Part shown: piece by piece, positions 1 to 59,256 of the stretch
Layout of the letters: each line of letters starts with the position of its first letter
Numbering within the stretch: the stretch's first letter is position 1
Virus record (IMG/VR): IMGVR_UViG_3300028025_001698
Coordinates: 1-59,256 of that record
Strand: one strand, 5' to 3'
Source of the DNA: a virus
DNA length: 59,256 bases
Notes under the pieces: model-generated
Told to the model about the DNA's origin: nothing
Seen by the model: the letters and a program-made list of their open reading frames with translations, nothing else
Databases searched by the model: none
Made by a program: the position numbers and the translations under genes

Positions 1-263
1 CTGCTCACATGGCAAATACTATCGTCAGCTTTAACGGTTCTTTTGGAGCAGTCCATGATAGCTTCAGTACACATGCGGATGAAGTTGATTTCCTACAAGA
101 AGTAACTAAGATGACATTCATAGCACAGTATGATGTAGAAAACTTCTTTAACATACTTCAAGATAACCTTATGGATAATAAGGATACCTTCACGTTTAAT
201 CAACCTGATCTAGGTAATCTAGAACTTTCTGATATAACTAACTCGGAGTATTTCTTTTGTTAA
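1..263 (+). CDS. T7-like single-subunit RNA polymerase, C-terminal fragment
   Basis: This is the 3' end of a single-subunit DNA-directed RNA polymerase, entered in frame at base 3 (A-H-M-A-N-T...). It carries the palm motif C sequence FGAVHDSF, whose His-Asp match T7 H811-D812. It ends in GNLELSDITNSEYFFC, parallel to T7 GNLNLRDILESDFAFA; both run about 70 residues past the HD pair. The ATG at base 9 is internal, not a start. The N-terminal part of the same gene is at 57685-59256. Direct joining of the window ends is out of frame and leaves about 130 residues missing, so the two pieces are inferred, not shown, to be one gene. Confidence 0.9.
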   Translation, partial: AHMANTIVSFNGSFGAVHDSFSTHADEVDFLQEVTKMTFIAQYDVENFFNILQDNLMDNKDTFTFNQPDLGNLELSDITNSEYFFC

Positions 264-370: not shown

Positions 371-826
371 ATGAAAATAAAAAATCTTTATTATGTTTAT
401 AAACATATTGACCCTGATAACGGAGAAATCCTTTATGTAGGTATGGGTACTGGTTCTAGAGCATGGGCATCAGGGACTTCTAGCGGAAGCAGTAGGTCTA
501 ATGAACATGCTGCTTGGATTAGTGACAGGTATGAAGAGGGTTACACAATGAGTGATATTACTTTTGTAATGGAAACTTTGTTAACCAAAGAACAAGCTCT
601 TAGTATAGAGCTATCTTTAATTAAAGAATTAAAACCTAGGTTTAATAGGTTATCAAAAGACTTTGTTAATAAAAAATATACTAAAGAACAAGCAAAAGAA
701 GCCTTATCTCTTTTTAAAAGTGGTGTTAGGTATTGTGATATCCCAAGAGAACTCGGTTTAGAATCATCTAACATGAGTGTTCTTGGAAAACGTATGGTAG
801 AATCTGGAGAAAAATTTGAAGACTAA
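371..826 (+). CDS. GIY-YIG endonuclease (probable homing nuclease)
   Basis: A 151-residue protein with an N-terminal GIY-YIG nuclease fold: YYVYKHID (residues 7-14), then ILYVGMG, then GSRAW with the likely catalytic Arg. A later Glu in ALSIELSLIKEL and Asn in RFNR complete the signature. Residues ~100-145 (YTKEQAKEAL...IPRELGLESSNMSVL) look like a helix-turn-helix DNA-binding tail, as in modular homing nucleases. AAAGGGAA upstream is the ribosome site. It sits as a free-standing gene between RNA polymerase and nrdJ and ends 1 nt before the nrdJ ATG, so the two are probably co-translated. The target site is unknown; nearby nrdJ or RNA polymerase is a reasonable guess. Confidence 0.8.
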   Translation: MKIKNLYYVYKHIDPDNGEILYVGMGTGSRAWASGTSSGSSRSNEHAAWISDRYEEGYTMSDITFVMETLLTKEQALSIELSLIKELKPRFNRLSKDFVNKKYTKEQAKEALSLFKSGVRYCDIPRELGLESSNMSVLGKRMVESGEKFED

Positions 827-827
827 T

Positions 828-2705
828 ATGAACTCTTATCAGCAGCTGATTGCAAAATCGAGGTACGCTCGATACCTACCCGAACAAAAACGTAGGGAGA
901 ACTGGGATGAAACTTCTACTCGATGGGTAGACTTCTTTAAAGAACAGCTTAAAGACAAGATCAATACCCAAGATACTATCTGGGATATCTTAGGGACAAG
1001 CATTAATAACTTGTCAGTACTCCCATCTATGCGTTCTGTTATGACTGCTGGTGAAGCTCTTAAGCGTACACACGTAGCTGCATATAACTGTAGTTATCTT
1101 CCTGTAGATCATAAGCGTTGTTTCGATGAGGCTATGTATATCCTATTGTGTGGTACTGGTGTAGGCTTCTCATGTGAGCAAGTCTATACAAACAAATTAC
1201 CTACTGTACCTACATTAGAAGAATCAGATAAGATCATCACAGTAGAAGACTCTAAAGAAGGCTGGTGTGAGGCATATAAGTTGCTTATCAGTCGTTTATA
1301 TGCTGGCTCTATTCCCAAGTGGGATGTATCCTTAGTACGTCCAGCAGGTGCTCCACTTAAAACCTTTGGTGGTCGTGCCTCTGGTCCAGGACCCTTGATT
1401 GACTTGTTCCAGTATACTGTTAACAAGTTTAAGAATGCACAAGGTCGTCAGTTGAAGCCTATCGAGTGCCATGATATCATGTGTAAGATTGGTGAGGTAG
1501 TCGTTGTAGGTGGTGTACGTAGGTCAGCCATGATTTCCCTTGGTGACTTAGGTGACTATGATCATGCTACAGCTAAAGCAGGTGCATGGTGGGAAAACCA
1601 TGGTGAACGTGCATTGGCTAATAACTCTGCTGTATACAATAGTAAGCCTTCTATTGGTGAATTCATGAAGGAATGGTTAGATATCTATAACAGTCACTCA
1701 GGTGAACGTGGTATCTTTAACCGTGAAGCCTCACAGAAACAAGCTAACAAGTGGGGTCGTAGAGATATCAACACTGACTATGGTACTAATCCATGCTCAG
1801 AGATTATCCTTAAGCCATATCAGTTCTGTAACCTGTCTACAGTAGTTGTGTCTCCTGATGACACCGTTGCTTCCCTTAAAACTAAGGTTCGCTTGGCTAC
1901 TATTATGGGTACAATGCAGTCTACACTGACTGACTTCCCTTATCTTCGTGACATCTGGAAAAAGAATACAGAACAAGAGCGTCTCTTGGGTGTGTCTATG
2001 ACTGGTATCCTTGACAACCATATCCTCCGTGGTAGCAGTACACAGCATAACCTACGTAATGTCCTTGAAGAACTCCGTGATGTAGCCCGTGAAACTAATA
2101 AAGAGTGGGCAACTATCTTAGGTGTACCTGAATCAGCCGCTATTACTTGTGTTAAGCCTGAAGGTACTGTGTCACAACTTACACAGACATCTAGCGGTAT
2201 CCATGCTGGTCACGCACCATACTATATCAGACGTATTCGTCAGGATAAAAAAGACCCATTGACTCAGTTCTTGATTGACCAAGGTGTTCCTCATGAAGAC
2301 TGCGTTATGAAGCCAGACCAGACAGCTGTGTTTAGTTTCCCACAACAGTCACCAGGATTTACCCGTAAGGATATCAATGCTATTGAACACCTTAATATTT
2401 GGTTAGCATACCAACGTTTTTGGTGTGAGCATAAGCCTTCAGTAACTATCTCAGTTAAAGACCACGAGTGGATGGAAGTAGGCGCATGGGTATATGAACA
2501 CTTTGATGAGTGCACTGGAATTTCTTTCCTTCCTGATGATGGGGGTACTTATCGGCAAGCACCATACGAGAACACTGACGTTGAAACTTACCGTAATCTG
2601 CTTAACACCTTACCTGCTATTGAATGGGATCTCTTTATTGAAGACCGTGACAATGTAGAAGGTGTGCAGACTTTAAGTTGTGCCGCTGGCGGGTGTGAAA
2701 TCTAA
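828..2705 (+). CDS. nrdJ: Adenosylcobalamin-dependent ribonucleoside-triphosphate reductase (class II, monomeric)
   Basis: Reduces ribonucleoside triphosphates to deoxy forms with coenzyme B12, feeding phage DNA synthesis. All key residues of the Lactobacillus leichmannii type are visible: C88 (NCSYLP, first thiol), NPCSEI with C323 (thiyl radical) and E325, C334 (FCNLS), and a C-terminal redox pair C618/C623 (SCAAGGCEI). The spacings C323-C334 (11) and C618-C623 (5) equal those of C408-C419 and C731-C736 in the family type. At 625 residues it is shorter than the ~740-residue type. ATG at 828 is preferred; an upstream in-frame TTG (816) overlaps the preceding gene. A thioredoxin that could re-reduce the C-terminal pair follows at 3164. 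Confidence 0.96.
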   Translation: MNSYQQLIAKSRYARYLPEQKRRENWDETSTRWVDFFKEQLKDKINTQDTIWDILGTSINNLSVLPSMRSVMTAGEALKRTHVAAYNCSYLPVDHKRCFDEAMYILLCGTGVGFSCEQVYTNKLPTVPTLEESDKIITVEDSKEGWCEAYKLLISRLYAGSIPKWDVSLVRPAGAPLKTFGGRASGPGPLIDLFQYTVNKFKNAQGRQLKPIECHDIMCKIGEVVVVGGVRRSAMISLGDLGDYDHATAKAGAWWENHGERALANNSAVYNSKPSIGEFMKEWLDIYNSHSGERGIFNREASQKQANKWGRRDINTDYGTNPCSEIILKPYQFCNLSTVVVSPDDTVASLKTKVRLATIMGTMQSTLTDFPYLRDIWKKNTEQERLLGVSMTGILDNHILRGSSTQHNLRNVLEELRDVARETNKEWATILGVPESAAITCVKPEGTVSQLTQTSSGIHAGHAPYYIRRIRQDKKDPLTQFLIDQGVPHEDCVMKPDQTAVFSFPQQSPGFTRKDINAIEHLNIWLAYQRFWCEHKPSVTISVKDHEWMEVGAWVYEHFDECTGISFLPDDGGTYRQAPYENTDVETYRNLLNTLPAIEWDLFIEDRDNVEGVQTLSCAAGGCEI

Positions 2706-2748: not shown

Positions 2749-3177
2749 ATGATTGGTCAGAAATTTAATAAGTGGACTGTGGTTGAGTTTGATTCTAAAA
2801 CAAAAAACCACAATTCACTTTACAAATGTATATGTGAATGCGGAAAAGAAAGCATTGTAAAGGATTCTAATTTACGAACAGGTAAATCAAAGCAATGTAA
2901 GTCTTGTTCTGCTAAAATTAATGGGCGTAAAGGTTTAGATGCTCAATCTAAACAACATCTGTATTTCATTCGTTGTGGTGATTATATTAAAATTGGATCT
3001 ACAGATGATATAGAAAGAAGAATTAAAAATTTAAAACATGCTAACCCATATCCAATAGAGCTTATAAAAATTATGCTGAATGAAGGTCACTTAGAATCAA
3101 AATACCATGATCAATACAAAGATAAACGAATCCACGGTGAGTGGTTTAACATGAAAGAGTTAAATGAAACTACTTAA
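2749..3177 (+). CDS. GIY-YIG/T5orf172-type nuclease with N-terminal zinc ribbon
   Basis: A 142-residue two-domain protein. Residues 1-60 carry the GQKFNKWTVVEF start common in phage homing-nuclease DNA-binding modules, then a four-cysteine zinc ribbon (CICECGK...CKSCSAK). Residues ~68-138 are a T5orf172/MUG113-type GIY-YIG fold: LYFIRCGDYIKIGSTDDIERRIKNL, a Glu before YHDQYKDKRI, and the terminal GEWF signature. It has a strong AGGAGG ribosome site and its own candidate promoter. It overlaps thioredoxin by 14 nt and separates it from nrdJ, a typical homing-gene position. Confidence 0.75.
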   Translation: MIGQKFNKWTVVEFDSKTKNHNSLYKCICECGKESIVKDSNLRTGKSKQCKSCSAKINGRKGLDAQSKQHLYFIRCGDYIKIGSTDDIERRIKNLKHANPYPIELIKIMLNEGHLESKYHDQYKDKRIHGEWFNMKELNETT

Positions 3178-3418
3178 ATTCTCTGCAGCATGGTGTCAAC
3201 CATGTAAGCAACTAGATGCATTCCTAGCAGAAGCCTTGTTAGAATATCCTGAGATTGAACTTGTGAGTATGCCTATTGAAGACAATAAAGATTCAGTATC
3301 ATACTACGGTATCCGTACAGTACCCACTATGATTATGGTTGATGACAATGATCAGGTACTCAGGACTTCTGTAGGCTTTATACCTACTAAGGTTAAACCT
3401 TTTTTAGCAGGTACCTAA
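3164..3418 (+). CDS. Thioredoxin-like protein
   Basis: A compact 84-residue thioredoxin fold with active site AAWCQPCK (C11, C14) and the cis-proline segment RTVPTM near residue 53. Thioredoxins reduce disulfides such as the C-terminal pair of class II ribonucleotide reductase, so pairing with the neighbouring nrdJ is the likely role. It is shorter than bacterial thioredoxin (~105), as is common in phages. Its stop codon lies inside the candidate promoter at 3404-3421. Confidence 0.88.
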   Translation: MKLLKFSAAWCQPCKQLDAFLAEALLEYPEIELVSMPIEDNKDSVSYYGIRTVPTMIMVDDNDQVLRTSVGFIPTKVKPFLAGT

Positions 3419-3424: not shown

Positions 3425-3496
3425 AGCGGGGTAGCTCAGTAGAAGAGCGCTGGACTCATAATCCAGAGGTCAGAGGTGCGACTCCTTTCCCCGCAA
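3425..3496 (+). tRNA. tRNA with CAU anticodon (Met, initiator-like acceptor)
   Basis: A full cloverleaf folds. The acceptor is GCGGGG/CCCCGC with an unpaired A1-A72 end. The D stem is GCTC/GAGC, the anticodon stem CTGGA/TCCAG with loop CTCATAA (CAT at 3457-3459), and the T stem AGAGG/CCTTT. The acceptor and the 1-72 mismatch mirror bacterial initiator tRNA, but the C11-G24 pair and the anticodon stem without three G-C pairs are elongator-like. The D loop lacks the usual GG and the T loop is TGCGACT rather than TTCRANT. CCA is not fully encoded (ACCC follows). A lysidine-modified Ile2 identity is possible. Confidence 0.85.
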
Positions 3497-3540
3497 CCCT
3501 CGGTCCGACTCTACCGATACGGAGTCACAGACAAAATGAC

Positions 3541-3965: not shown

Positions 3966-4155
3966 TGAACATGATATCATGGATTTATGTCCTGATTACT
4001 ATAAAACTCAGGAAGAAATCCTGCATGATGACAGAGCCTATTGGTACGACATTGAGCTACAGGGGCTAAAGCTTCCTGAGGTATGGGGTAAGTATATCTT
4101 AGGTGAAAATGTTAGATCCTACGAGTTTAATATTAGCAAAGGCTATTATGGGTAA
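3958..4155 (+). CDS. Hypothetical protein, 65 residues
   Basis: Not recognised: an acidic, aromatic-rich small protein (MINEHDIMDLCPDYYKTQ...). ATG 3958 is chosen over upstream in-frame ATGs at 3946 and 3952 because GAGGATGAAG gives it a ribosome site. It overlaps the 3' end of the previous gene by 8 nt and the next start by 8 nt, so translation is probably coupled. Confidence 0.6.
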   Translation: MINEHDIMDLCPDYYKTQEEILHDDRAYWYDIELQGLKLPEVWGKYILGENVRSYEFNISKGYYG

Positions 4156-4294
4156 GGGTAGCGGTCGTAGACCAACCGATGAAAACAAGTTCCAAAGTAA
4201 TTATGACCTGATCTTTGGTAAAAAACCACCTGAAGGTCAGGATAAAGAGAAGGAAAAACAAGATGGCAATGACACCACCCCAACCAAAGAATAA
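4148..4294 (+). CDS. Small MGKGSGRRP-type phage protein
   Basis: A 48-residue protein beginning MGKGSGRRPTDENKFQSNYD. This basic start followed by an F-x-x-N-(Y/W)-D-x-I-F segment recurs in small proteins of T7-like aquatic phages, whose function I do not know. The C terminus is highly charged and probably disordered (KEKEKQDGNDTTPTKE). ATG 4148 begins the conserved part. It overlaps the Dps start by 32 nt in another frame. Confidence 0.6.
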   Translation: MGKGSGRRPTDENKFQSNYDLIFGKKPPEGQDKEKEKQDGNDTTPTKE

Positions 4295-4739
4295 TAGTTT
4301 GATTACACAGCTTACTGAATTGTATGCTAATAACTTTGTAACATACTATAAGTCACATGGATACCACTTCAATGTTGAAGGTCCAATGTTTGCTCAAGAC
4401 CATGCACTACTAGAAGAGATTTATGATTTTCTTTGGGCGCAACATGATATGCTCGGAGAACAAATCCGTCAAATGGATAAAGGAGTACCATGTTCTCTTA
4501 AAGAAATCCTTGGTATGACTGAGATTGTAGAATGCGATTCAGCAAAGAAACCTAGTAAAGAAATGTTTACGTGGTTGAATGAAGACTTTAATTGCTTGAT
4601 TGAGTATGCACAACAACTATATGATGATGCTGATATGCAGAGTTATGGTGGTCTTGCTACTTTAATTGGTGACTATATTAAAGACTTATCTAAGTTAAAT
4701 TGGAAAGTTAAAGCTACTATTGGAAAGAGTTTTAAATGA
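4263..4739 (+). CDS. Dps-like ferritin (DNA-protection, iron oxidation)
   Basis: A 158-residue Dps-family protein. Dps forms a 12-subunit shell that oxidises and stores Fe(II) with peroxide, and some members coat DNA. The signature SHGYHFNVEGPMFAQDH is clear. Candidate ferroxidase ligands H35, H47, E51, D62 and E66 show exactly the spacing of E. coli Dps H51, H63, D67, D78, E82, with Asp-to-Glu at one site, so activity is plausible. ATG 4263 with AAGGA upstream is chosen; it has a short N-terminal tail without an obvious Lys-rich DNA-binding arm. It lies at the end of the plus arm with late-type neighbours. Protection of the phage DNA or host from oxidative stress is inferred. Confidence 0.9.
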   Translation: MAMTPPQPKNNSLITQLTELYANNFVTYYKSHGYHFNVEGPMFAQDHALLEEIYDFLWAQHDMLGEQIRQMDKGVPCSLKEILGMTEIVECDSAKKPSKEMFTWLNEDFNCLIEYAQQLYDDADMQSYGGLATLIGDYIKDLSKLNWKVKATIGKSFK

Positions 4740-5017
4740 AATCATATAACGTACAAGCATTAAGAGGTCATGATTATGATGATCATGACTTTCAAATAGA
4801 TATGCGGGATGTTGGTATTAATATCCCTGATAATGTTCTTTATACTAAAGACCTTGGTCCTTATGTAATTAATGAGGTATATAAACAAAGCTCAACAGGC
4901 TTAGTTGATGTTCTTAACGACAAAACAGGTATGCTTTATACCAAGGCAGAAGCTGAAGAAACTGCTAAGAGTAATAAATCACAAGCATTAGATATGTATA
5001 ACCAGCTATTAAGCTAA
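4736..5017 (+). CDS. Hypothetical protein, 93 residues
   Basis: Not recognised. An acidic protein with His/Asp-rich residues 12-17 (HDYDDHD) and a helical C-terminal third rich in Glu/Ala. It starts by a 4-nt ATGA overlap with the Dps gene, so the two are probably translated together. It is the last gene of the plus arm and is followed directly by the bidirectional terminator. Confidence 0.65.
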   Translation: MKSYNVQALRGHDYDDHDFQIDMRDVGINIPDNVLYTKDLGPYVINEVYKQSSTGLVDVLNDKTGMLYTKAEAEETAKSNKSQALDMYNQLLS

Positions 5018-5028
5018 AAAAAAAAAAT

Positions 5029-5064
5029 AACCCCTACTAGGATAATTCCTAATAGGGGTTTTTT
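5029..5064. terminator. Bidirectional rho-independent terminator
   Basis: AACCCCTA/TAGGGGTT extended by TAGGA/TCCTA gives a nearly continuous 14-bp stem with one mismatch and a TAAT loop. It is flanked by a poly-A run upstream (5016-5028) and T6 downstream. It sits between the convergent ends of the plus arm (5017) and minus arm (5070) and can stop transcription from both sides. Confidence 0.9.
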
Positions 5065-5069
5065 ATTTG

Positions 5070-8000
5070 TCAGGTAAAGAAGTAAATCATTCCCTTGTTG
5101 CCTCGTGCTTTAAGTTCTTTTAAGAATGCATCACGTTTGTCTTTATATTTTAAACTATCCCAAGCATATATGCCTGAATATTTTGAATTAAAATTATAAT
5201 ACATATACATATTATCTGCTAAAGATTTTGCCTGTTGTTTTGTAATACGAGTAGATTCAGGTCTATCAGGACCCGGAGGTGTATAACCTGAAGATTTACT
5301 TTCAAGAAATTCTTTCAATTTCTTTTGGTAATCTGCTAACTCATTTGGCTTTTTATCTTTTAGATATTTGTATTCACGATCAATAGTAGTAAACATACCT
5401 TTGTAAGGTGATCCTGGACCAATTACAATCTCATCATTACGCATCATTTCAGGAACAGCTTCCCTGAGTTGCTTCATAAAGTCAGTAGTAAAACCTTTAG
5501 CCATGTTCCACTCAAACACTTTGGGAGCTACAATATTGTTAGCTACATAGTGAACAAAGGGATAACTCATAGAGTCAACAATAAAATTATCAAACACAGG
5601 AATAATAAAGCTAGAGTCTGCTGGTGTTTTATTACCATTAAGTAACCTTGCTGTCTCAGCAATAATAATTGACTCACGGTATTGACCAAATGTAGGACCA
5701 ACTTGGTTAACTGCTCCAGATCCTTCTTCAGGTATAAACAAAGACCCATCGTCTAACCTTAAGCCTTTAGCTTTAGCTGGTGCTAGAGGGTTAAACATTC
5801 TGGCAGTTTCCATTATACGTCTTCGTATACCTTCTGCACCTTTAATCTGAACAATATTTCCTGTAGGTTCAGTACCAAATCTACCAATAGAAATGTTTTC
5901 ATTATAGTAACCAATTGGCTTAGGAACTCGACCAAACATTTGTAGATACCTGACCATCTTTTTAGGTAATACATATTGCCAAGAGTCAGTTGTCTGTTTT
6001 AAAGTTGATTTATAAATTTCATTAATGTCTTTAGCTAAAGCATTAACGTCACCATTATAAAACCTTACTGCTTCATCCCTAAATTCAGGATGACTCTTTA
6101 AGAAAGCTTGGGCTTCTGCAATGTGGTAATTAGCTGGCTTACCATAGTCGGTAGTCATCAAGACTTTCTTTGAGAAGTCTTTATTGAATTGTTTATTACC
6201 AGCAACCCCTGCACCACCATACTTAGCAAGTAGAATTTTAAAGTTTTCAACCTTATCTGGTTGACTATCTCCAAAAGCAGAAGAAATACCTTGATCTAAA
6301 GCTACTGTTGTAAAGTAATATCGTGGATCACCCTTTTCATTAGGTAACGTATCGGTAAATAAATCACCAACTTTGTCAATAAACTTATCCCATACCAAAC
6401 CAACACGGCTTAAGATATCCATGTTACCAACGTCAGAAGCTAAGAAAGAACGACCAGCTGAGTTCATATCAAGAGCTACAGTAACCCTTGGAGTAAAAGG
6501 AGTTCCATTCAACTTAGAGTCTAAGTAATTAGCAGCATCAAGATAAGCTTGAAGCTTGTAACCCCAGTCATCTCTATCTGCTTCTTTAAGGAAATTATCT
6601 AATGCACCCTTTTGAGCAGGAGTAAGCTTTTCAATAAGACCTTCTGGTTTACCTAAGGCATTAACAACTTCACGGGTATTGTTAGGAACAATGCTACGTA
6701 ACAATCTACCTTTTGCAGCAGCCTCAGCAATAAACTCTGGTGTTACTGTTTGTAACAAGTCAGGTAACAAAATAGATTCAGATGACATACCTGCAGACCT
6801 ACTTGAGTCAAGCACACGACCAAGTGTTGTAAGGAAGCTTAATTCTTTTTCATCTGCTGACAAAGTAAAATTATTATTTCTTGCTTTACCTGCAATCCTA
6901 CTAAAGAAACCTTCAGCAGTTGCTTTGTTAACCCCTGTATTATGGAAGTTACTATTAAGCATAATAGGAGCAGACTTACCTACAGTTAATGCACGAGTCC
7001 ACTTATTACGTTGTGGATTAAAGTCAGTTGCATCCTGATACATTCGGTGTGTTGCATAGTCTTCCCAATAAGTAGAGAACTGTGGACCACCATAAGCCAC
7101 ATGCTTTGCCATGTCACCTAACTCAGTCTGAAGGTTGTTTACTTTTTGATCAATAACTTCTGCCGCTGTTTTGTTTCCATTAACAGAAGCATCTTGAATG
7201 TCTTCTTCAGATACCTTTAACAAGCCCATAACATTTAATTGTGCTGGACTAGTTGGATTCATTACATGACCGAGAATAGCTTCATTAAACAAAGCAGCAA
7301 AGTAAGCTTTAACAGGAGAAATAAATAAGGGTACTTTAGCTACAGCACCTTTGGCCTCAGCCATTTCTTTGGTAACAGTATACTCTTGCTTTTTCTTATC
7401 CATTTCACGGACGTCTTGCAACGCACCTTGATAAGCACCTGTCTCTGTTGGAGGAGCCTTTTGAGCTTTTCCTGACAATGCACCAGTAACACTACGTTGC
7501 ATGCCTTTGCTTTTGTATCTCAACTCAGCACCTAAGCCTGGACTTAACCTGAGAATCTCAGTACCTTGTGGATCAACATCCTCAATTAAGTATCCCTTAT
7601 CAACTAGCGCTTGGCTAATAGTTGCACCAGCTGCTTCATTAGAAATGTTTTGATTAATAGCTTGAGAGTTACCAACAAAAGTTTCTTCTCCTGCACCTTT
7701 AGATAACTTTTTAAACAAACGACCTAGGTTCTTCTCAACCATGTCCCGTTTAAGACCACCGTTAACAGCTACTTTACTTAGCGGACCATCACCATCATCC
7801 ATCAACATTTGATCTAAGCCACTGATATCAGAGTTGTCTTCAGCAGACATGATTTCACCGTCTTTTTGATTTGCAGCACCTGACAACATAGGAGCTAACA
7901 AAATAAAAGAAGTAGTAGCTGCATTACCAACTTGTTTAGTATCTAAACCAGTACCTTGTTTAAGGTAAGTAAGACCGTTAAGTTGTGCATTAGAAGTTGT

Positions 8001-8570
8001 TCCTTCTTTATACAAACCTACACTTAAATCGTTTAAACCATTAGCAATGTTCATAGCAGTACGAACAATAGCACCTGCTTCAGTAGCCTGAACTGCACCA
8101 TCACCATAAGCAGTCCTAATTCCTTCTTCATTTTCCCAACGAGAAGGATCAAGGATTTTCCTTGCTTCCATTTGACTGTTACGTTCTTCTTGAAGCTTGC
8201 TATAGTAGTCTTCGTTAGTACTTTCACCAGCAAAAGTATCCATACCAAAGCCACCATCCTCTTGAGGGGCTTCAGTCATCTCTGGCATGTCATCAATAGG
8301 TTGTTGAGTAGGAATTAATTCCTCTGCTGGCATACGAACATCAGTACCCGCTAGTAGCCTTGCATCAGGAGGTAATCCAGATAACCTTCTTGCAGGAACA
8401 AACTCTTCTTCTTCACCAAATATCAATGATGGATTAGGAATTGTTTGTTGTTCAGGTGGTGGAGGAGCATTCATACGAGCATTAGCTTCGTTGATTTGCT
8501 GTTGAAGTAAATCGTCTGCAATACGTGGTATTGTAGGTACGTTAACCTTTGTATTAATATTAATCGCCAT
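5070..8570 (-). CDS. Giant internal virion protein, 1166 residues
   Basis: The last gene of the late arm. Its size and place after the nozzle, fibre and smaller internal proteins fit the large ejected core proteins of podoviruses (T7 gp15/gp16 position), which form a channel for DNA entry. The N terminus is Pro-rich and probably disordered (residues ~30-110). A mostly helical body follows, with a hydrophobic stretch near residue 220 (NAATTSFILLAPMLSGAAN). I see no transglycosylase motif. It overlaps the end of the 1269-residue gene by 11 nt. The assignment rests on context and size. Confidence 0.7.
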   Translation of the reverse strand: MAININTKVNVPTIPRIADDLLQQQINEANARMNAPPPPEQQTIPNPSLIFGEEEEFVPARRLSGLPPDARLLAGTDVRMPAEELIPTQQPIDDMPEMTEAPQEDGGFGMDTFAGESTNEDYYSKLQEERNSQMEARKILDPSRWENEEGIRTAYGDGAVQATEAGAIVRTAMNIANGLNDLSVGLYKEGTTSNAQLNGLTYLKQGTGLDTKQVGNAATTSFILLAPMLSGAANQKDGEIMSAEDNSDISGLDQMLMDDGDGPLSKVAVNGGLKRDMVEKNLGRLFKKLSKGAGEETFVGNSQAINQNISNEAAGATISQALVDKGYLIEDVDPQGTEILRLSPGLGAELRYKSKGMQRSVTGALSGKAQKAPPTETGAYQGALQDVREMDKKKQEYTVTKEMAEAKGAVAKVPLFISPVKAYFAALFNEAILGHVMNPTSPAQLNVMGLLKVSEEDIQDASVNGNKTAAEVIDQKVNNLQTELGDMAKHVAYGGPQFSTYWEDYATHRMYQDATDFNPQRNKWTRALTVGKSAPIMLNSNFHNTGVNKATAEGFFSRIAGKARNNNFTLSADEKELSFLTTLGRVLDSSRSAGMSSESILLPDLLQTVTPEFIAEAAAKGRLLRSIVPNNTREVVNALGKPEGLIEKLTPAQKGALDNFLKEADRDDWGYKLQAYLDAANYLDSKLNGTPFTPRVTVALDMNSAGRSFLASDVGNMDILSRVGLVWDKFIDKVGDLFTDTLPNEKGDPRYYFTTVALDQGISSAFGDSQPDKVENFKILLAKYGGAGVAGNKQFNKDFSKKVLMTTDYGKPANYHIAEAQAFLKSHPEFRDEAVRFYNGDVNALAKDINEIYKSTLKQTTDSWQYVLPKKMVRYLQMFGRVPKPIGYYNENISIGRFGTEPTGNIVQIKGAEGIRRRIMETARMFNPLAPAKAKGLRLDDGSLFIPEEGSGAVNQVGPTFGQYRESIIIAETARLLNGNKTPADSSFIIPVFDNFIVDSMSYPFVHYVANNIVAPKVFEWNMAKGFTTDFMKQLREAVPEMMRNDEIVIGPGSPYKGMFTTIDREYKYLKDKKPNELADYQKKLKEFLESKSSGYTPPGPDRPESTRITKQQAKSLADNMYMYYNFNSKYSGIYAWDSLKYKDKRDAFLKELKARGNKGMIYFFT

Positions 8571-11500
8571 TTGATTTTCCTAATTCTTTTTGTAAGTATT
8601 TAGCGAAAGCGGGACTTGTTCCAACTATGGGAAGCAGCTTCGCACCCTGTTCAATCTTTTTACCTTCTGGTGCCTCCAAAGCTCGTTTAACCTTACTAAG
8701 GTATGAGAGCTGTGCAGATTGATCGGCAATCCTATCTAAAATATCTTTCTTTTTGTTGTCTTCCATCAACGGGAACATCTGATCAAACACTCTTTGTCCA
8801 GAACCTAGTATACCCATTTGATTAATAACTCTTAAGAATTCTTTGTTTTCTTTAACCCATTTAGGTGGGCTTTCTCCGTACTTGATCATGTCTTTAATGT
8901 ACAAAGCAATCATAGACAAACCAATCATCATAGCAATAACAGCCGCAGAATTCTTTTGGTCTTCTGATCCTGCTTTACGCAAGTCACCTAACAACCGTGG
9001 AAGAATATTAGCAGTAAATGCTGATGTGTATCCTGTAAATTGAGTAAATAATTTTAAATAAGGATCACTATAAAACTTAGGTCTGTTAAGAGTGCTAGGT
9101 AAAACAACAGCTTCGTTAACAAAGTTATAAGTAGCTTGTTGTAAGTTATTAACAACATAATCTTCTTTAGACTTTGTATCAGCATCAATAGCCATCATGT
9201 ATTCATAGTCAACATTTATTCTTCTTAAGTGGTCTTTAGCATCTGTTATTTCTTGCTCTGTACCTGTACCTTGAGTAACAACGTCTAACCAATTCTGAAT
9301 AGCATCAGCTGCAATAGCTAAACGAGCATTACGAGTAATAGCAGTTACAGAAGTAAGACCAGTTATCTTAAAGAAACCATCAGTCCATTTTGAATAGTAA
9401 GAAGTTAATATATCATTACGATGCCCAATACCACCTTCTCTAAGATATCCTGCTTCAGATAATTCTGTTCTTATCCTAGCGTTTTTGATAAGAACTCTAT
9501 CAGAAACCTTATTACCAAGCTCTCGATATATAGCACCCATCTCACTACCCGTACTCTTAAGCAATGCAAGAGTAGCTTTAGCGGCTTGTGGCCTATTTAA
9601 ATTACGATATATCTGAGCAAACTCTACAGTAGAACTAATAGCGGCTAATGGTAATGCAGTAATAGTAGATAAAAAGTTAAGGGTATTTAAACCACCTTTT
9701 AAATAAGGATTAGTAATAGCTTTGTATTCTCCATTGCGTATTGCTAATACGTCTTGAATTTCTTTAGCTATAAACCCTGCTTGTTCAGTATCTATATCAC
9801 CGTTGTCTAACATCTTTTGAACTAATGATGCAAGCTTAGAGCCATTCTCACCAATAAATTCTTTATTAGTATTATATGCAGCTGCAGATGCCGCCAAAGA
9901 GTAAGCATTGTCTAATATATTATGAGACATATATTGACTAAATAAACTTTTAAATCCTGGTTGAGCTATTTTAGCTTCTAATTCTTGTTTACCTTTAATC
10001 TTTTCAGCATTACCGTTAAGCATTGCATCAAGAGAATCTTCAAAGCTGTTTACTTGTTTGTTATCAAGTATTGCGTTAGTTAATTGTGTTGCATCTGCAT
10101 AATTCATATTCAAATGCTGTTGTAAATCTTTAACAAACTTAGCAGAATTTCTTGATACAAGTGCCTTATCTAATGGCTTATGTTCTAAGAATTGTTGGAC
10201 AGATAAATCTTTACCTGTTGCTTCATTATATGCTCGAGTTAAATTACTTATTCTATCTGCATAATCAATAATAGAATCTTTATACTGATCAAATTTACCA
10301 TAATCAATAGCTATCTTATCAGCAATATCTCTGGTAGAATCAGCAAACAAATCCTTTTTAATACGAGCTAATTCTTTTATAGCATTAACAACAGTAGGAT
10401 TAGAAATAATACGAGAGGCTTCTGTAGCAGATACCCCACCAAAAGAAGAAATAAAGTTTTCGCTATTACCAAAGTTCTTAAAGATGTTTGATTCCATCAT
10501 AGCCTGATGGTTCTCAATAGACGTACCATTAACAGCATTAGAACTACCTAACAATGTAGCTAACGTAGCTGAGTAAATGCTTTTGTGGTTAGTATCACCA
10601 GTTATAATGTTAGAGAACTTAGAAAATAAACCACCAATACCTTTATCTTTTATAGCTGAATACGTCTTAGCAACAACACCCTCAGTACCTCTTTTAGAAA
10701 TCTCAGGTTCCGCTAAAACATCTAACGATGTCTTAACATTATTTTTTAATTGTGATGTTTCTGTTTCATTAATAACTTGTTTAGTTGAAGGCATTGTAAC
10801 AAGAGGTTGATCTCCTGCTGCAATACGTTGCTCATTAACATCACTAAGGTATTTCTCTCTGAACTCAACATCTGTTGATGACCTAGGTATTTGGTCACTA
10901 GTAGTTAATGCTGAATAAGTTTTAAGGCCACCAGCTAATCCACCACCTAACACAGCACCACCAGCACCTGCATTCATTAATCTAGACTTTAACTTTGTCA
11001 TTTCTTCTGGTGAAGAAGGTAATTCAAAACCACCTTTCTCACCAAAATAACTAGTTAACTCTTGTCCTGTTTCTGTTAAACCTTCAACAAAAGCTCCTGC
11101 TCCTGTAGCTAAACCAATATCCTTTAGCTTACCCATCTTACTACCAGAGATTGCTTTAAAAGCAGTACTAACTTCTTTAACTGACTCAGTCATAGACTTA
11201 CGAACTAGCTCTTCAGCCGCTTCTTTAGTCATTGTTTTTTGTAATTCTTTTACAACTAAATCTTGAGTAGACTTCTTAGCAATATTTAAACCAGTATTTT
11301 TAAATAAATATCCTAATGATAATTTATCTAATACTGTCATAGTAAAGCCAGCAGCAATAGCAGCTGTTGCATTCTTATTCTTTTGGTCATTGTATACTTG
11401 ACCTGTATACATACTAAAAGGAACTGTTAAAGAAACACCATAAGTTAATGGTGCCGCCATTGTAGCAACAATACTAGTTAACATTTGTGGTGCAGAAGCA

Positions 11501-12369
11501 GCAGCACTTCCTACTGTCCAATCAAAGAATTTACCTAAAGTGTCTAGCTTCCAGTTACCTTTTTCATCAAAAGCTTCTGCGCTTCTTAATTCAGGTATGT
11601 CTGTTAACATTGAGTTTTTAGTATTAATACCTGATTGTGCAAAACTTTTTATTGCTTCACTACCAGTCTTGTCAGCAATTAAATCAAAGGTACCATATAT
11701 GTTTTTAGAGGCTTGAAGTTTACCTTGATCCCAACCACTATCTAAGTTAGATGTAGCCTTACCAAACTTATCTTCACCAGTTCTAATAATAGCTGGACCA
11801 GAAAAATAATCACTGTTGCCTGAATCATCAACAACACTGCCAAACTGACCAGCAGTATCAGTATAACGTTTAGCCATAAAACCAGCGGCATTACGTTCTT
11901 TGTTTAATGTGTCAAGAATATTGTCTGCTAATGTAGGCTTACGATCAACCCTGCGTTGTGCACGTTCTAAACTACCCATATACATAGAAGTATATTGGCC
12001 AGCATCTGTAGAAATAGTTGGATCAACATAACCTAATTCAAGAGCTTTACTAGTAAGACGTCTGCCAGCAGGATCTACTAAATCACCAACCTCACGCTTA
12101 TAAGATTTATCTCCAGTAAAAACAGGGGTAGTATAGTTGCCTTCACTAATTAAATTTTCCATAATTGCTGTTTGGAAATCAGCACCTAATTGAGCACCTT
12201 TAATTTGGTTAGGTTGAAACTTAGCAGTCTCCCTAGCGCTAACACCTTGAAGACGGATGGATTCCCCTGTAGGGGTTACCATAGTGTCGGCATCTTTAAG
12301 TGAGATACCTCCCGGTAAATCTGATTTCCTCGAGAAAATTTGTCGAAGTTCTTCGTCTAATCCATCCAT
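8560..12369 (-). CDS. Giant internal virion protein with N-terminal nuclease-like (SNase-like) domain, 1269 residues
   Basis: The largest protein of the phage and a likely ejected internal core protein. Residues ~20-125 resemble a staphylococcal-nuclease fold: KDADT (DGDT position), SIRLQGVSARE (canonical RLxGIDAPE), and DPAGRRL...LELGYVD (canonical YGRxLA...LVxxGLA). The Asp of DAPE is Ser here, so catalysis may be lost. Hydrophobic stretches near residues 285-350 and ~1170-1190 (AAVIAMMIGLSMIALYI) could cross the host membrane. The rest is helical. It is coupled to the 1166-residue gene by overlap. Function is inferred from position. Confidence 0.7.
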   Translation of the reverse strand: MDGLDEELRQIFSRKSDLPGGISLKDADTMVTPTGESIRLQGVSARETAKFQPNQIKGAQLGADFQTAIMENLISEGNYTTPVFTGDKSYKREVGDLVDPAGRRLTSKALELGYVDPTISTDAGQYTSMYMGSLERAQRRVDRKPTLADNILDTLNKERNAAGFMAKRYTDTAGQFGSVVDDSGNSDYFSGPAIIRTGEDKFGKATSNLDSGWDQGKLQASKNIYGTFDLIADKTGSEAIKSFAQSGINTKNSMLTDIPELRSAEAFDEKGNWKLDTLGKFFDWTVGSAAASAPQMLTSIVATMAAPLTYGVSLTVPFSMYTGQVYNDQKNKNATAAIAAGFTMTVLDKLSLGYLFKNTGLNIAKKSTQDLVVKELQKTMTKEAAEELVRKSMTESVKEVSTAFKAISGSKMGKLKDIGLATGAGAFVEGLTETGQELTSYFGEKGGFELPSSPEEMTKLKSRLMNAGAGGAVLGGGLAGGLKTYSALTTSDQIPRSSTDVEFREKYLSDVNEQRIAAGDQPLVTMPSTKQVINETETSQLKNNVKTSLDVLAEPEISKRGTEGVVAKTYSAIKDKGIGGLFSKFSNIITGDTNHKSIYSATLATLLGSSNAVNGTSIENHQAMMESNIFKNFGNSENFISSFGGVSATEASRIISNPTVVNAIKELARIKKDLFADSTRDIADKIAIDYGKFDQYKDSIIDYADRISNLTRAYNEATGKDLSVQQFLEHKPLDKALVSRNSAKFVKDLQQHLNMNYADATQLTNAILDNKQVNSFEDSLDAMLNGNAEKIKGKQELEAKIAQPGFKSLFSQYMSHNILDNAYSLAASAAAYNTNKEFIGENGSKLASLVQKMLDNGDIDTEQAGFIAKEIQDVLAIRNGEYKAITNPYLKGGLNTLNFLSTITALPLAAISSTVEFAQIYRNLNRPQAAKATLALLKSTGSEMGAIYRELGNKVSDRVLIKNARIRTELSEAGYLREGGIGHRNDILTSYYSKWTDGFFKITGLTSVTAITRNARLAIAADAIQNWLDVVTQGTGTEQEITDAKDHLRRINVDYEYMMAIDADTKSKEDYVVNNLQQATYNFVNEAVVLPSTLNRPKFYSDPYLKLFTQFTGYTSAFTANILPRLLGDLRKAGSEDQKNSAAVIAMMIGLSMIALYIKDMIKYGESPPKWVKENKEFLRVINQMGILGSGQRVFDQMFPLMEDNKKKDILDRIADQSAQLSYLSKVKRALEAPEGKKIEQGAKLLPIVGTSPAFAKYLQKELGKSNGD

Positions 12370-57684: not shown

Positions 57685-59256
57685 ATGAATCCATTAAATT
57701 ATCTTACTGAACGTGTATCGAAGGTTGTCCCCAACTCAGATAAGATCTACAATGAGGGTGCTCGCCTTCTAGCACACTACCCAACATGGGAATATGAACT
57801 TGAAAGATTTATCAACGAGTCTTGGGATACCCTCCTTAGATACTGCATTCGTAACAAGAACGCAACGCATAGCGCCTCTGTTAAACTCACCTTTGCTTCT
57901 GACCTTATCGGAAAAAGAATTGCAAGAGCTATTGGAGCTGACGAACTTGATATCAAGTCAACTCTATCGCTTGGAGATCTTCTTCTCGAAACGTTCCTTC
58001 AAGATGGACTGATTGACATCTTCAGGGAATATGCAGGATACAAAGCTCCCTACATGGTACGCATTGTTAACCAAGCAGATGATATTAAGCCAACATTAAT
58101 TGGTACATCATTCGAACCTTTGTTACCTATCATGGGTCTATATAGCCCATTAACTAAAGAACCCTTTATTAAGGGCTGGACTAACTCTAAGCTTTTCCAT
58201 GATAACCTTAATAAAACCTTTGTAAGATCCCTTGAGACCCTTCGTCAGCAGTCTTGGAAGCTTAACATACCAGTGTTAAATGCTATGCAAGCACAGACTC
58301 CTAAGGAAATCCTTGAGTTGATCGATGAAGATGGTGTTGTAAGAGAATACAATATACACCATGAAAACCTAGAGTTACCTAAGAAACTATCTCATACAGA
58401 TGGTACTAAGTTCCTTGGTAAGAAGGATCCTAAGCTACAACGTATGATGAGTAAATACTTTGAGTACATGCAAGTGCTTAAGAAAGCTGAGATGATCGGT
58501 GAAAGAACTTTCTTTCAGGAAGTCTCTTGTGACTACCGAGGTAGAGTATATTATGCAGAATCATTCTTAGAGTTTCAAGGTAGTGATCTAGCTCGTAGCT
58601 TGTTTATGTTTGCCAACAAAAAGAAAGTTACTGAGAGAGGTTTATTCTGGATCAAAGTGCATACAGCAGCTTGCTTTAATAAATCATTTATCATCAGTGA
58701 TATACCTAAGTACTTTAAGACAGACTATAAAGCCTATCTTGAGGGCGAAGGTCTTGATACTATATCAGTAGACAAGATGACTCTTGAAGATAGAGTTGCA
58801 TGGGTAGATAATAACATTGAGTTTATCTATGATGTAGCTCGTACTAAGACTATTCATCCTGATGCTGAAAAGTCTTATAGCTTTTTAGCTTGTTGTAATG
58901 AATTACTAGGATACAAGAGAGCTAAGATGGAAGGCAAGGAGTTCATGTCTGGACTACCTATACCTATTGATGGTAGTAATAACGGATGGCAACACTTAGC
59001 GGCTATGTCTAAAGACAAACAAGCTGGTACGCTGGTGTCACTTGTTCCTACACCTATCCAGAAAGACTTCTACGTAGCTGTCGCTAAAGAACTTATTGGT
59101 ATTATGCCTGAGTACTTTGAGATTAAAGGTATGCCTATGAAACATATCAGAAAAGGTATAGCTAAACGAGGCTCAATGACTCGTGCATACAGTGCAGGTA
59201 AAATGCGTATAGCAAAAAACATGTACGAAGACTGTCACGTAGAAGGTTATACTGTT
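57685..59256 (+). CDS. T7-like single-subunit RNA polymerase, N-terminal 524 residues (cut by window end)
   Basis: Starts directly after the primase stop and stays open to the last base. Diagnostic motifs: CDYRGRVYYAESFLEFQGSD (T7 DWRGRVY...PQGND), IPIDGSNNGWQHLAAMS with the catalytic Asp (T7 D537 DGSCSGIQH) and KRGSMTRAYSAG (T7 KRSVMTLAYG with K631 and Y639). The HDS motif and C terminus are at 1-263. It presumably transcribes from the TAGTCGGTACCTAATAG-type promoters found on both strands. The N-terminal promoter-recognition region is divergent from T7, as the promoter is. Confidence 0.95.
   Translation, partial: MNPLNYLTERVSKVVPNSDKIYNEGARLLAHYPTWEYELERFINESWDTLLRYCIRNKNATHSASVKLTFASDLIGKRIARAIGADELDIKSTLSLGDLLLETFLQDGLIDIFREYAGYKAPYMVRIVNQADDIKPTLIGTSFEPLLPIMGLYSPLTKEPFIKGWTNSKLFHDNLNKTFVRSLETLRQQSWKLNIPVLNAMQAQTPKEILELIDEDGVVREYNIHHENLELPKKLSHTDGTKFLGKKDPKLQRMMSKYFEYMQVLKKAEMIGERTFFQEVSCDYRGRVYYAESFLEFQGSDLARSLFMFANKKKVTERGLFWIKVHTAACFNKSFIISDIPKYFKTDYKAYLEGEGLDTISVDKMTLEDRVAWVDNNIEFIYDVARTKTIHPDAEKSYSFLACCNELLGYKRAKMEGKEFMSGLPIPIDGSNNGWQHLAAMSKDKQAGTLVSLVPTPIQKDFYVAVAKELIGIMPEYFEIKGMPMKHIRKGIAKRGSMTRAYSAGKMRIAKNMYEDCHVEGYTV

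Follow-up and report, generated by a model that had tools for sequence, protein, structure and literature searches.

Phage-encoded Dps proteins (mini-ferritins) are already known: there is a protein family for them, PHROG 3636, versions are annotated in S-EIV1, the Proteus phage Privateer, the Streptomyces samistiviruses and the Lactobacillus phages Lbab1, Semele and LP65, and many BFVD entries bear the name. In the literature we found no functional study of a phage Dps, only the remark that the Privateer protein was detected with purified virions (PMC7881722). The better-described counterparts are the bacterial Dps/NapA proteins, such as Vibrio Dps (3iq1), HP-NAP, TpF1 and Listeria Dps, and the His-type Dps represented by Nostoc punctiforme Dps4 and TeDpsA. 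Here, we examine a dps-like gene from a 59,256-nucleotide stretch of viral DNA (IMG/VR record IMGVR_UViG_3300028025_001698, positions 1 to 59,256; henceforth the window). Its product shares the five-helix fold of the bacterial proteins over its whole length. What appears to be new is the clade to which it belongs, in which a second-site ligand is relaxed and the surroundings of the metal site are changed.

Identification of a phage-borne mini-ferritin

The window protein matches the Pfam Ferritin family (PF00210) over residues 15-155 (E = 1.9e-11; 44.5 bits against a cut-off of 24.5), with the ferritin-like domain spanning the entire protein. It also recovers PHROG 3636 (E = 1.4e-26) and the solved Dps/NapA structures of the PDB (E down to 4e-12), to which it is only about 27-30% identical. 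It falls below the cut-offs of two NCBIfam equivalogs for named Dps, NF006975 (18.7 versus 114 bits) and NF041388 (26.7 versus 170 bits), under which a bacterial Dps control scores too.

The AlphaFold2 model of a single chain, computed from an alignment without S-EIV1, has a predicted local distance difference test score (pLDDT) of 91.1 and a predicted template modelling score (pTM) of 0.85; poor placement is confined to the first residues. Its helices (10-37, 43-70, 79-85, 98-125 and 129-156) form the Dps subunit fold, namely a four-helix bundle with a short BC helix and no ferritin E helix. Structural comparison with VIA-align returned about 50 entries with Z > 20, nearly all of them Dps. 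The best of these, Nostoc Dps4 (Z 23.1; root-mean-square deviation 1.7 over 151 residues), is tied with several other Dps. Therefore, on the Pfam, PHROG and PDB matches together with the model and its structural matches, the product is a Dps-fold protein and a genuine phage-borne mini-ferritin.

The ligand residues H35, H47, E51, D62 and E66 align column by column with H51, H63, D67, D78 and E82 of the Escherichia coli MG1655 Dps, reproducing the intersubunit ligand set of Dps, in which His, His, Asp/Glu, Asp and Glu are spaced by 12, 4, 11 and 4 positions. Among the 231 stop-to-stop frames of at least 60 amino acids in the window, the pattern H-x11-H-x3-[DE]-x10-D-x3-E has a single match against 0.01 expected after shuffling the frames, and we reject a chance origin of the spacing. 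An initial annotation of this DNA had proposed the reading frame, the five residues at the E. coli spacing and the mini-ferritin identity, and all of these are borne out.

Conservation of the ferroxidase ligands and the variability of position 51

Scans of viral contigs yielded about 40 relatives with roughly 37-89% identity; those on long contigs come from genomes of about 58-64 kb. Four of the ligands, H35, H47, D62 and E66, are invariant in 35 of 35 phage proteins and in 30 of 30 bacterial ones, the latter being the top hits in a Pseudomonadota sample and not all Dps. Moreover, D62 and E66 hold in all 42 unique relatives, a set selected with a pattern in which both His are fixed and these two positions are free. 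Position 51 behaves differently: the same 42 proteins carry E (13), N (12), G (6), Q (6), K (3) or S (2), and on a tree of 32 sequences the column shows at least 12 changes, five of them between acidic and non-acidic residues. Pairwise ratios of nonsynonymous to synonymous substitution (dN/dS) are mostly 0.05-0.2, and up to 0.3 in two comparisons, which indicates purifying selection and a protein that is being maintained.

Since position 51 varies among the phage's own relatives, the five-ligand set is a property of the window sequence and not of the phage family, and a complete ferroxidase site is not what selection keeps. Thus, of the "complete ferroxidase spacing" in the initial annotation, the spacing and the five residues stand, whereas completeness does not extend to relatives in which position 51 drifts. 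Its mention of one Asp-to-Glu change as a special feature has to be given up, because Glu is the ordinary residue here: it is found in 29 of the 30 bacterial relatives, and E. coli Dps has Asp.

A free position 51 is compatible with an active site, given that Asn67 of Nostoc Dps4 plays no part in metal binding and that the equivalent residue of canonical Dps acts via water at the second site (PMC6675082). The Nostoc protein shows that a non-acidic residue is tolerated, as in the phage relatives. The likeness does not extend to the rest of the His-type centre—in those proteins a His replaces D78 and His164 comes from a third subunit, whereas D62 is invariant among the phage relatives and the window protein has no His near W147.

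Departures from bacterial and other phage Dps

The phage proteins share the ligand spacing and the four core ligands with bacterial Dps/NapA, and E51 of the window occurs in many bacterial members; they differ from them in a short N-terminus, a basic C-terminus and the free position 51. Further differences set the phage clade apart from all 30 bacterial relatives: Trp36 is replaced by F or L (F36 in the window), Ala65 by G or N (G65 in the window) and Arg67 by Q. Position 61 is His in the phage clade and mostly V, I or L in the bacterial relatives, while K148 stands where a Met is otherwise universal. In bacterial Dps, the region in which helix D starts lines the threefold pore of the ferritin-like type, and in the phage clade the bacterial D128, E129 and D/A/S133 give way to a variable residue, G129 and T133, respectively. 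As these acidic residues are lost from the pore-lining region, iron entry may differ from that of bacterial Dps.

The basic C-terminus (WKVKATxGKSFK) is conserved, with the last 12 residues carrying a charge of +4 in most sequences examined, and relatives of the type found in contig L058 are without the KSFK end. Net charge is -8 for the window protein and -4 to -10 across the sequences. The Lys-rich N-terminal tail of the DNA-condensing E. coli Dps is absent from the window protein, whose first 15 residues hold one Lys.

The annotated phage Dps are distant from the window protein (13-32% identity where measured). Those of Privateer, the Streptomyces phage Evy, Lbab1 and the Bacteroides phage BS162P1 retain the Trp as well as acidity at position 51, whereas the window clade does not keep both. 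S-EIV1 has Gly at position 51 and Leu in place of the Trp, and the faecal phage contig MT836104 has Lys and Tyr, respectively. Our literature searches on S-EIV1 and on Trp52 returned nothing. In the tree, these other phage Dps branch near the window clade; because they sit on very long branches, a single phage origin of Dps would not be supported by it.

Genomic context and distribution of dps

The closest isolate is the Roseobacter phage CRP-7 (terminase 61% and capsid 51% identical), an RCA-lineage podovirus of 58 kb, called a new group by its authors. It has the same genome layout as the window but lacks dps and the ribonucleotide reductase (RNR) between the RNA polymerase (RNAP) and the convergent structural genes. 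Both ends of the window fall within the RNAP gene (Table 1), and from the spacing in relatives the window appears to be a near-complete, circularly permuted genome with about 370 bases missing. The integrase (PF00589) and resolvase (PF00239) families have no match in the window, nor does PF00589 in 12 relatives. On these family searches we rejected a temperate phage.

Table 1. Coordinates of the features of the window discussed in the text
Feature	Position	Strand	Remarks
RNAP, C-terminal part	9..263	+	in relatives, about 376 bases after RNAP
RNR	816..2705	+	class II (B12-dependent) by insertion domain
MUG113/T5orf172 (GIY-YIG-like) open reading frame (ORF)	2749-3177		between RNR and thioredoxin; missing in most relatives
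Thioredoxin	3164..3418	+	same operon as dps; PF00085, 4e-13
tRNA-Met (CAT)	3425-3498		between thioredoxin and next ORF
63-amino-acid ORF	4103..4294	+	32-base overlap with dps start; most relatives have a homologue directly before dps
GAGAAGG	4247..4253	+	probable ribosome-binding site for the ATG at 4263, from the sequence
dps-like gene, 158 amino acids	4263..4739	+	ATG start
Phage family features in dps			F36, H61, G65, Q67, D137, W147, basic C-terminus
93-amino-acid ORF	4736..5017	+	overlaps dps stop (ATGA); no Pfam match; also in L121
14-pair hairpin	5029..5060		flanked on each side by T runs; separates the dps operon from the convergent structural genes
End of structural cluster	5070-12369	-	two virion-type proteins of very large size (1166 and 1269 amino acids)
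T7-like RNAP	57685..59256	+	ends at window edge

Gene order is largely kept among the relatives, running from RNAP through RNR, usually thioredoxin, small ORFs, the 63-amino-acid ORF, dps and the 93-amino-acid ORF to the convergent structural genes, and the operon position of dps is conserved in about 35 loci. The hairpin downstream is a probable bidirectional terminator. Of 29 loci with an unbroken stretch between RNAP and the convergent genes, 23 have dps and six are without it, near-duplicates included. This count excludes L116, which we rejected as a dps-less genome: at 428-2175 its RNAP sequence is inverted beside its own C-terminus, probably through an assembly artefact. In L121, dps and thioredoxin are absent and the flanks kept (93-amino-acid ORF 80%, structural protein 79%). 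In L113, a diverged L058-type dps (10325-10747; 37%) lies amid genes 80-92% identical to those of the window, with RNR at 87%, and thus looks like an allele replaced by recombination. Together, the two cases mark dps as movable cargo at a fixed site.

Nucleotide-metabolism neighbours recur in other phages—the dps of Privateer is located between thioredoxin and an RNR gene, and that of Lbab1 lies near a thymidine kinase. Among the window's relatives, RNR is mostly of the B12 type, and dps is retained in L058, L135 and L160, which have the class I NrdA/NrdB. As dps is thus kept with either class, it does not track the iron-dependent enzyme, and we found no support for it as the partner of such an RNR.

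Some observations concern the neighbourhood itself. The RNR class is swapped at one locus inside one phage group: NrdA and NrdB replace both the class II RNR and the thioredoxin of the window in L058 (1520-4481), L135, L152, L155 and L160, and the NrdA of L058 carries a fused glutaredoxin. The MUG113/T5orf172 ORF is probably a mobile insertion. The first of the large virion-type proteins ranges from 98% to about 30% identity between otherwise close relatives.

Proposed function of the phage Dps and competing explanations

We consider it likely that the phage Dps acts inside the cell as a dodecamer that binds and oxidises Fe(II) and thereby limits oxidative damage, and not as a DNA condenser of the E. 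coli type. The subunit would be made alongside the replication and nucleotide-supply genes of this CRP-7-like podovirus, and twelve copies would form a hollow shell. Fe(II) would bind at the dimer interfaces, its site formed by H35, D62 and E66 and the second position taken by H47; there it would be oxidised by H2O2 or O2 and then stored. With less free iron, phage DNA in replication, or the supply of nucleotides, would be spared Fenton damage. The second-site carboxylate at position 51 would be dispensable in the phage family, as with Asn67 of Nostoc Dps4. Several points weigh against this proposal: some relatives are without dps; a specific link to an iron-dependent RNR is unsupported; and the replacement of Trp36, Ala65 and Arg67, along with the loss of the acidic residues at 128, 129 and 133, could impair iron entry or alter the chemistry.

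These same replacements, the drift of position 51 and the comparable losses in the unrelated Dps of S-EIV1 (G) and MT836104 (K) would also fit a Dps shell with altered iron chemistry, which would bind metal at a reduced centre with only the A site, oxidise it slowly or differently, and act as a chelator or store of Fe, Mn or Zn during infection. The invariance of the four core ligands under strong purifying selection speaks against such a shift, as does the binding of iron in crystals of an Asn-bearing Dps (PMC6675082), although its His-type site is unlike the phage one with D62; we regard this explanation as unlikely. We think it more doubtful still that virions carry the protein, or that it is ejected together with the DNA, shielding the genome on entry. 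Privateer offers a precedent, and several BFVD entries named "Prohead protease" bear a Dps-like domain: A0A6J7XDU5, A0A6J7WPK9 and A0A6J7WIS1, from uncultured phages (333-763 amino acids), match the Dps model with template modelling scores of 0.79-0.89 and may be protease-Dps fusions, which would suggest head packaging, or an annotation artefact. However, dps belongs to a rightward replication and nucleotide operon that the hairpin separates from the leftward structural genes and is missing from some relatives, and the Privateer protein, with its canonical ligand set, is only distantly related.

The initial annotation had further suggested that the protein might guard DNA. Guarding by binding has little sequence support, and an E. 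coli-like coating of DNA is improbable with a net charge of -8 and a single Lys among the first 15 residues; the conserved basic C-terminus leaves some room for it. Condensation or shielding of phage DNA through this C-terminus, with its +4 charge and K148, strikes us as very improbable: the overall charge is negative throughout, the KSFK end is not universal, and the Dps C-terminus lies near a threefold pore, where such a charge may have a role in the shell itself.

A bolder reading may be entertained, if only tentatively: a phage-specific lineage might have rebuilt the mini-ferritin around the A site, without the second-site carboxylate and Trp, with changed iron entry and a basic C-terminus. 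If true, its metal chemistry would be a different one, suited to infection and not to host stress. Sister phages with E, N, G, Q, K or S at one ligand and the rest of the site fixed constitute a natural experiment, in which the role of position 51 is testable via natural proteins. Likewise, the clean presence or absence of dps in close relatives makes its benefit during infection testable, and this bears on whether viruses manage the iron of their hosts.
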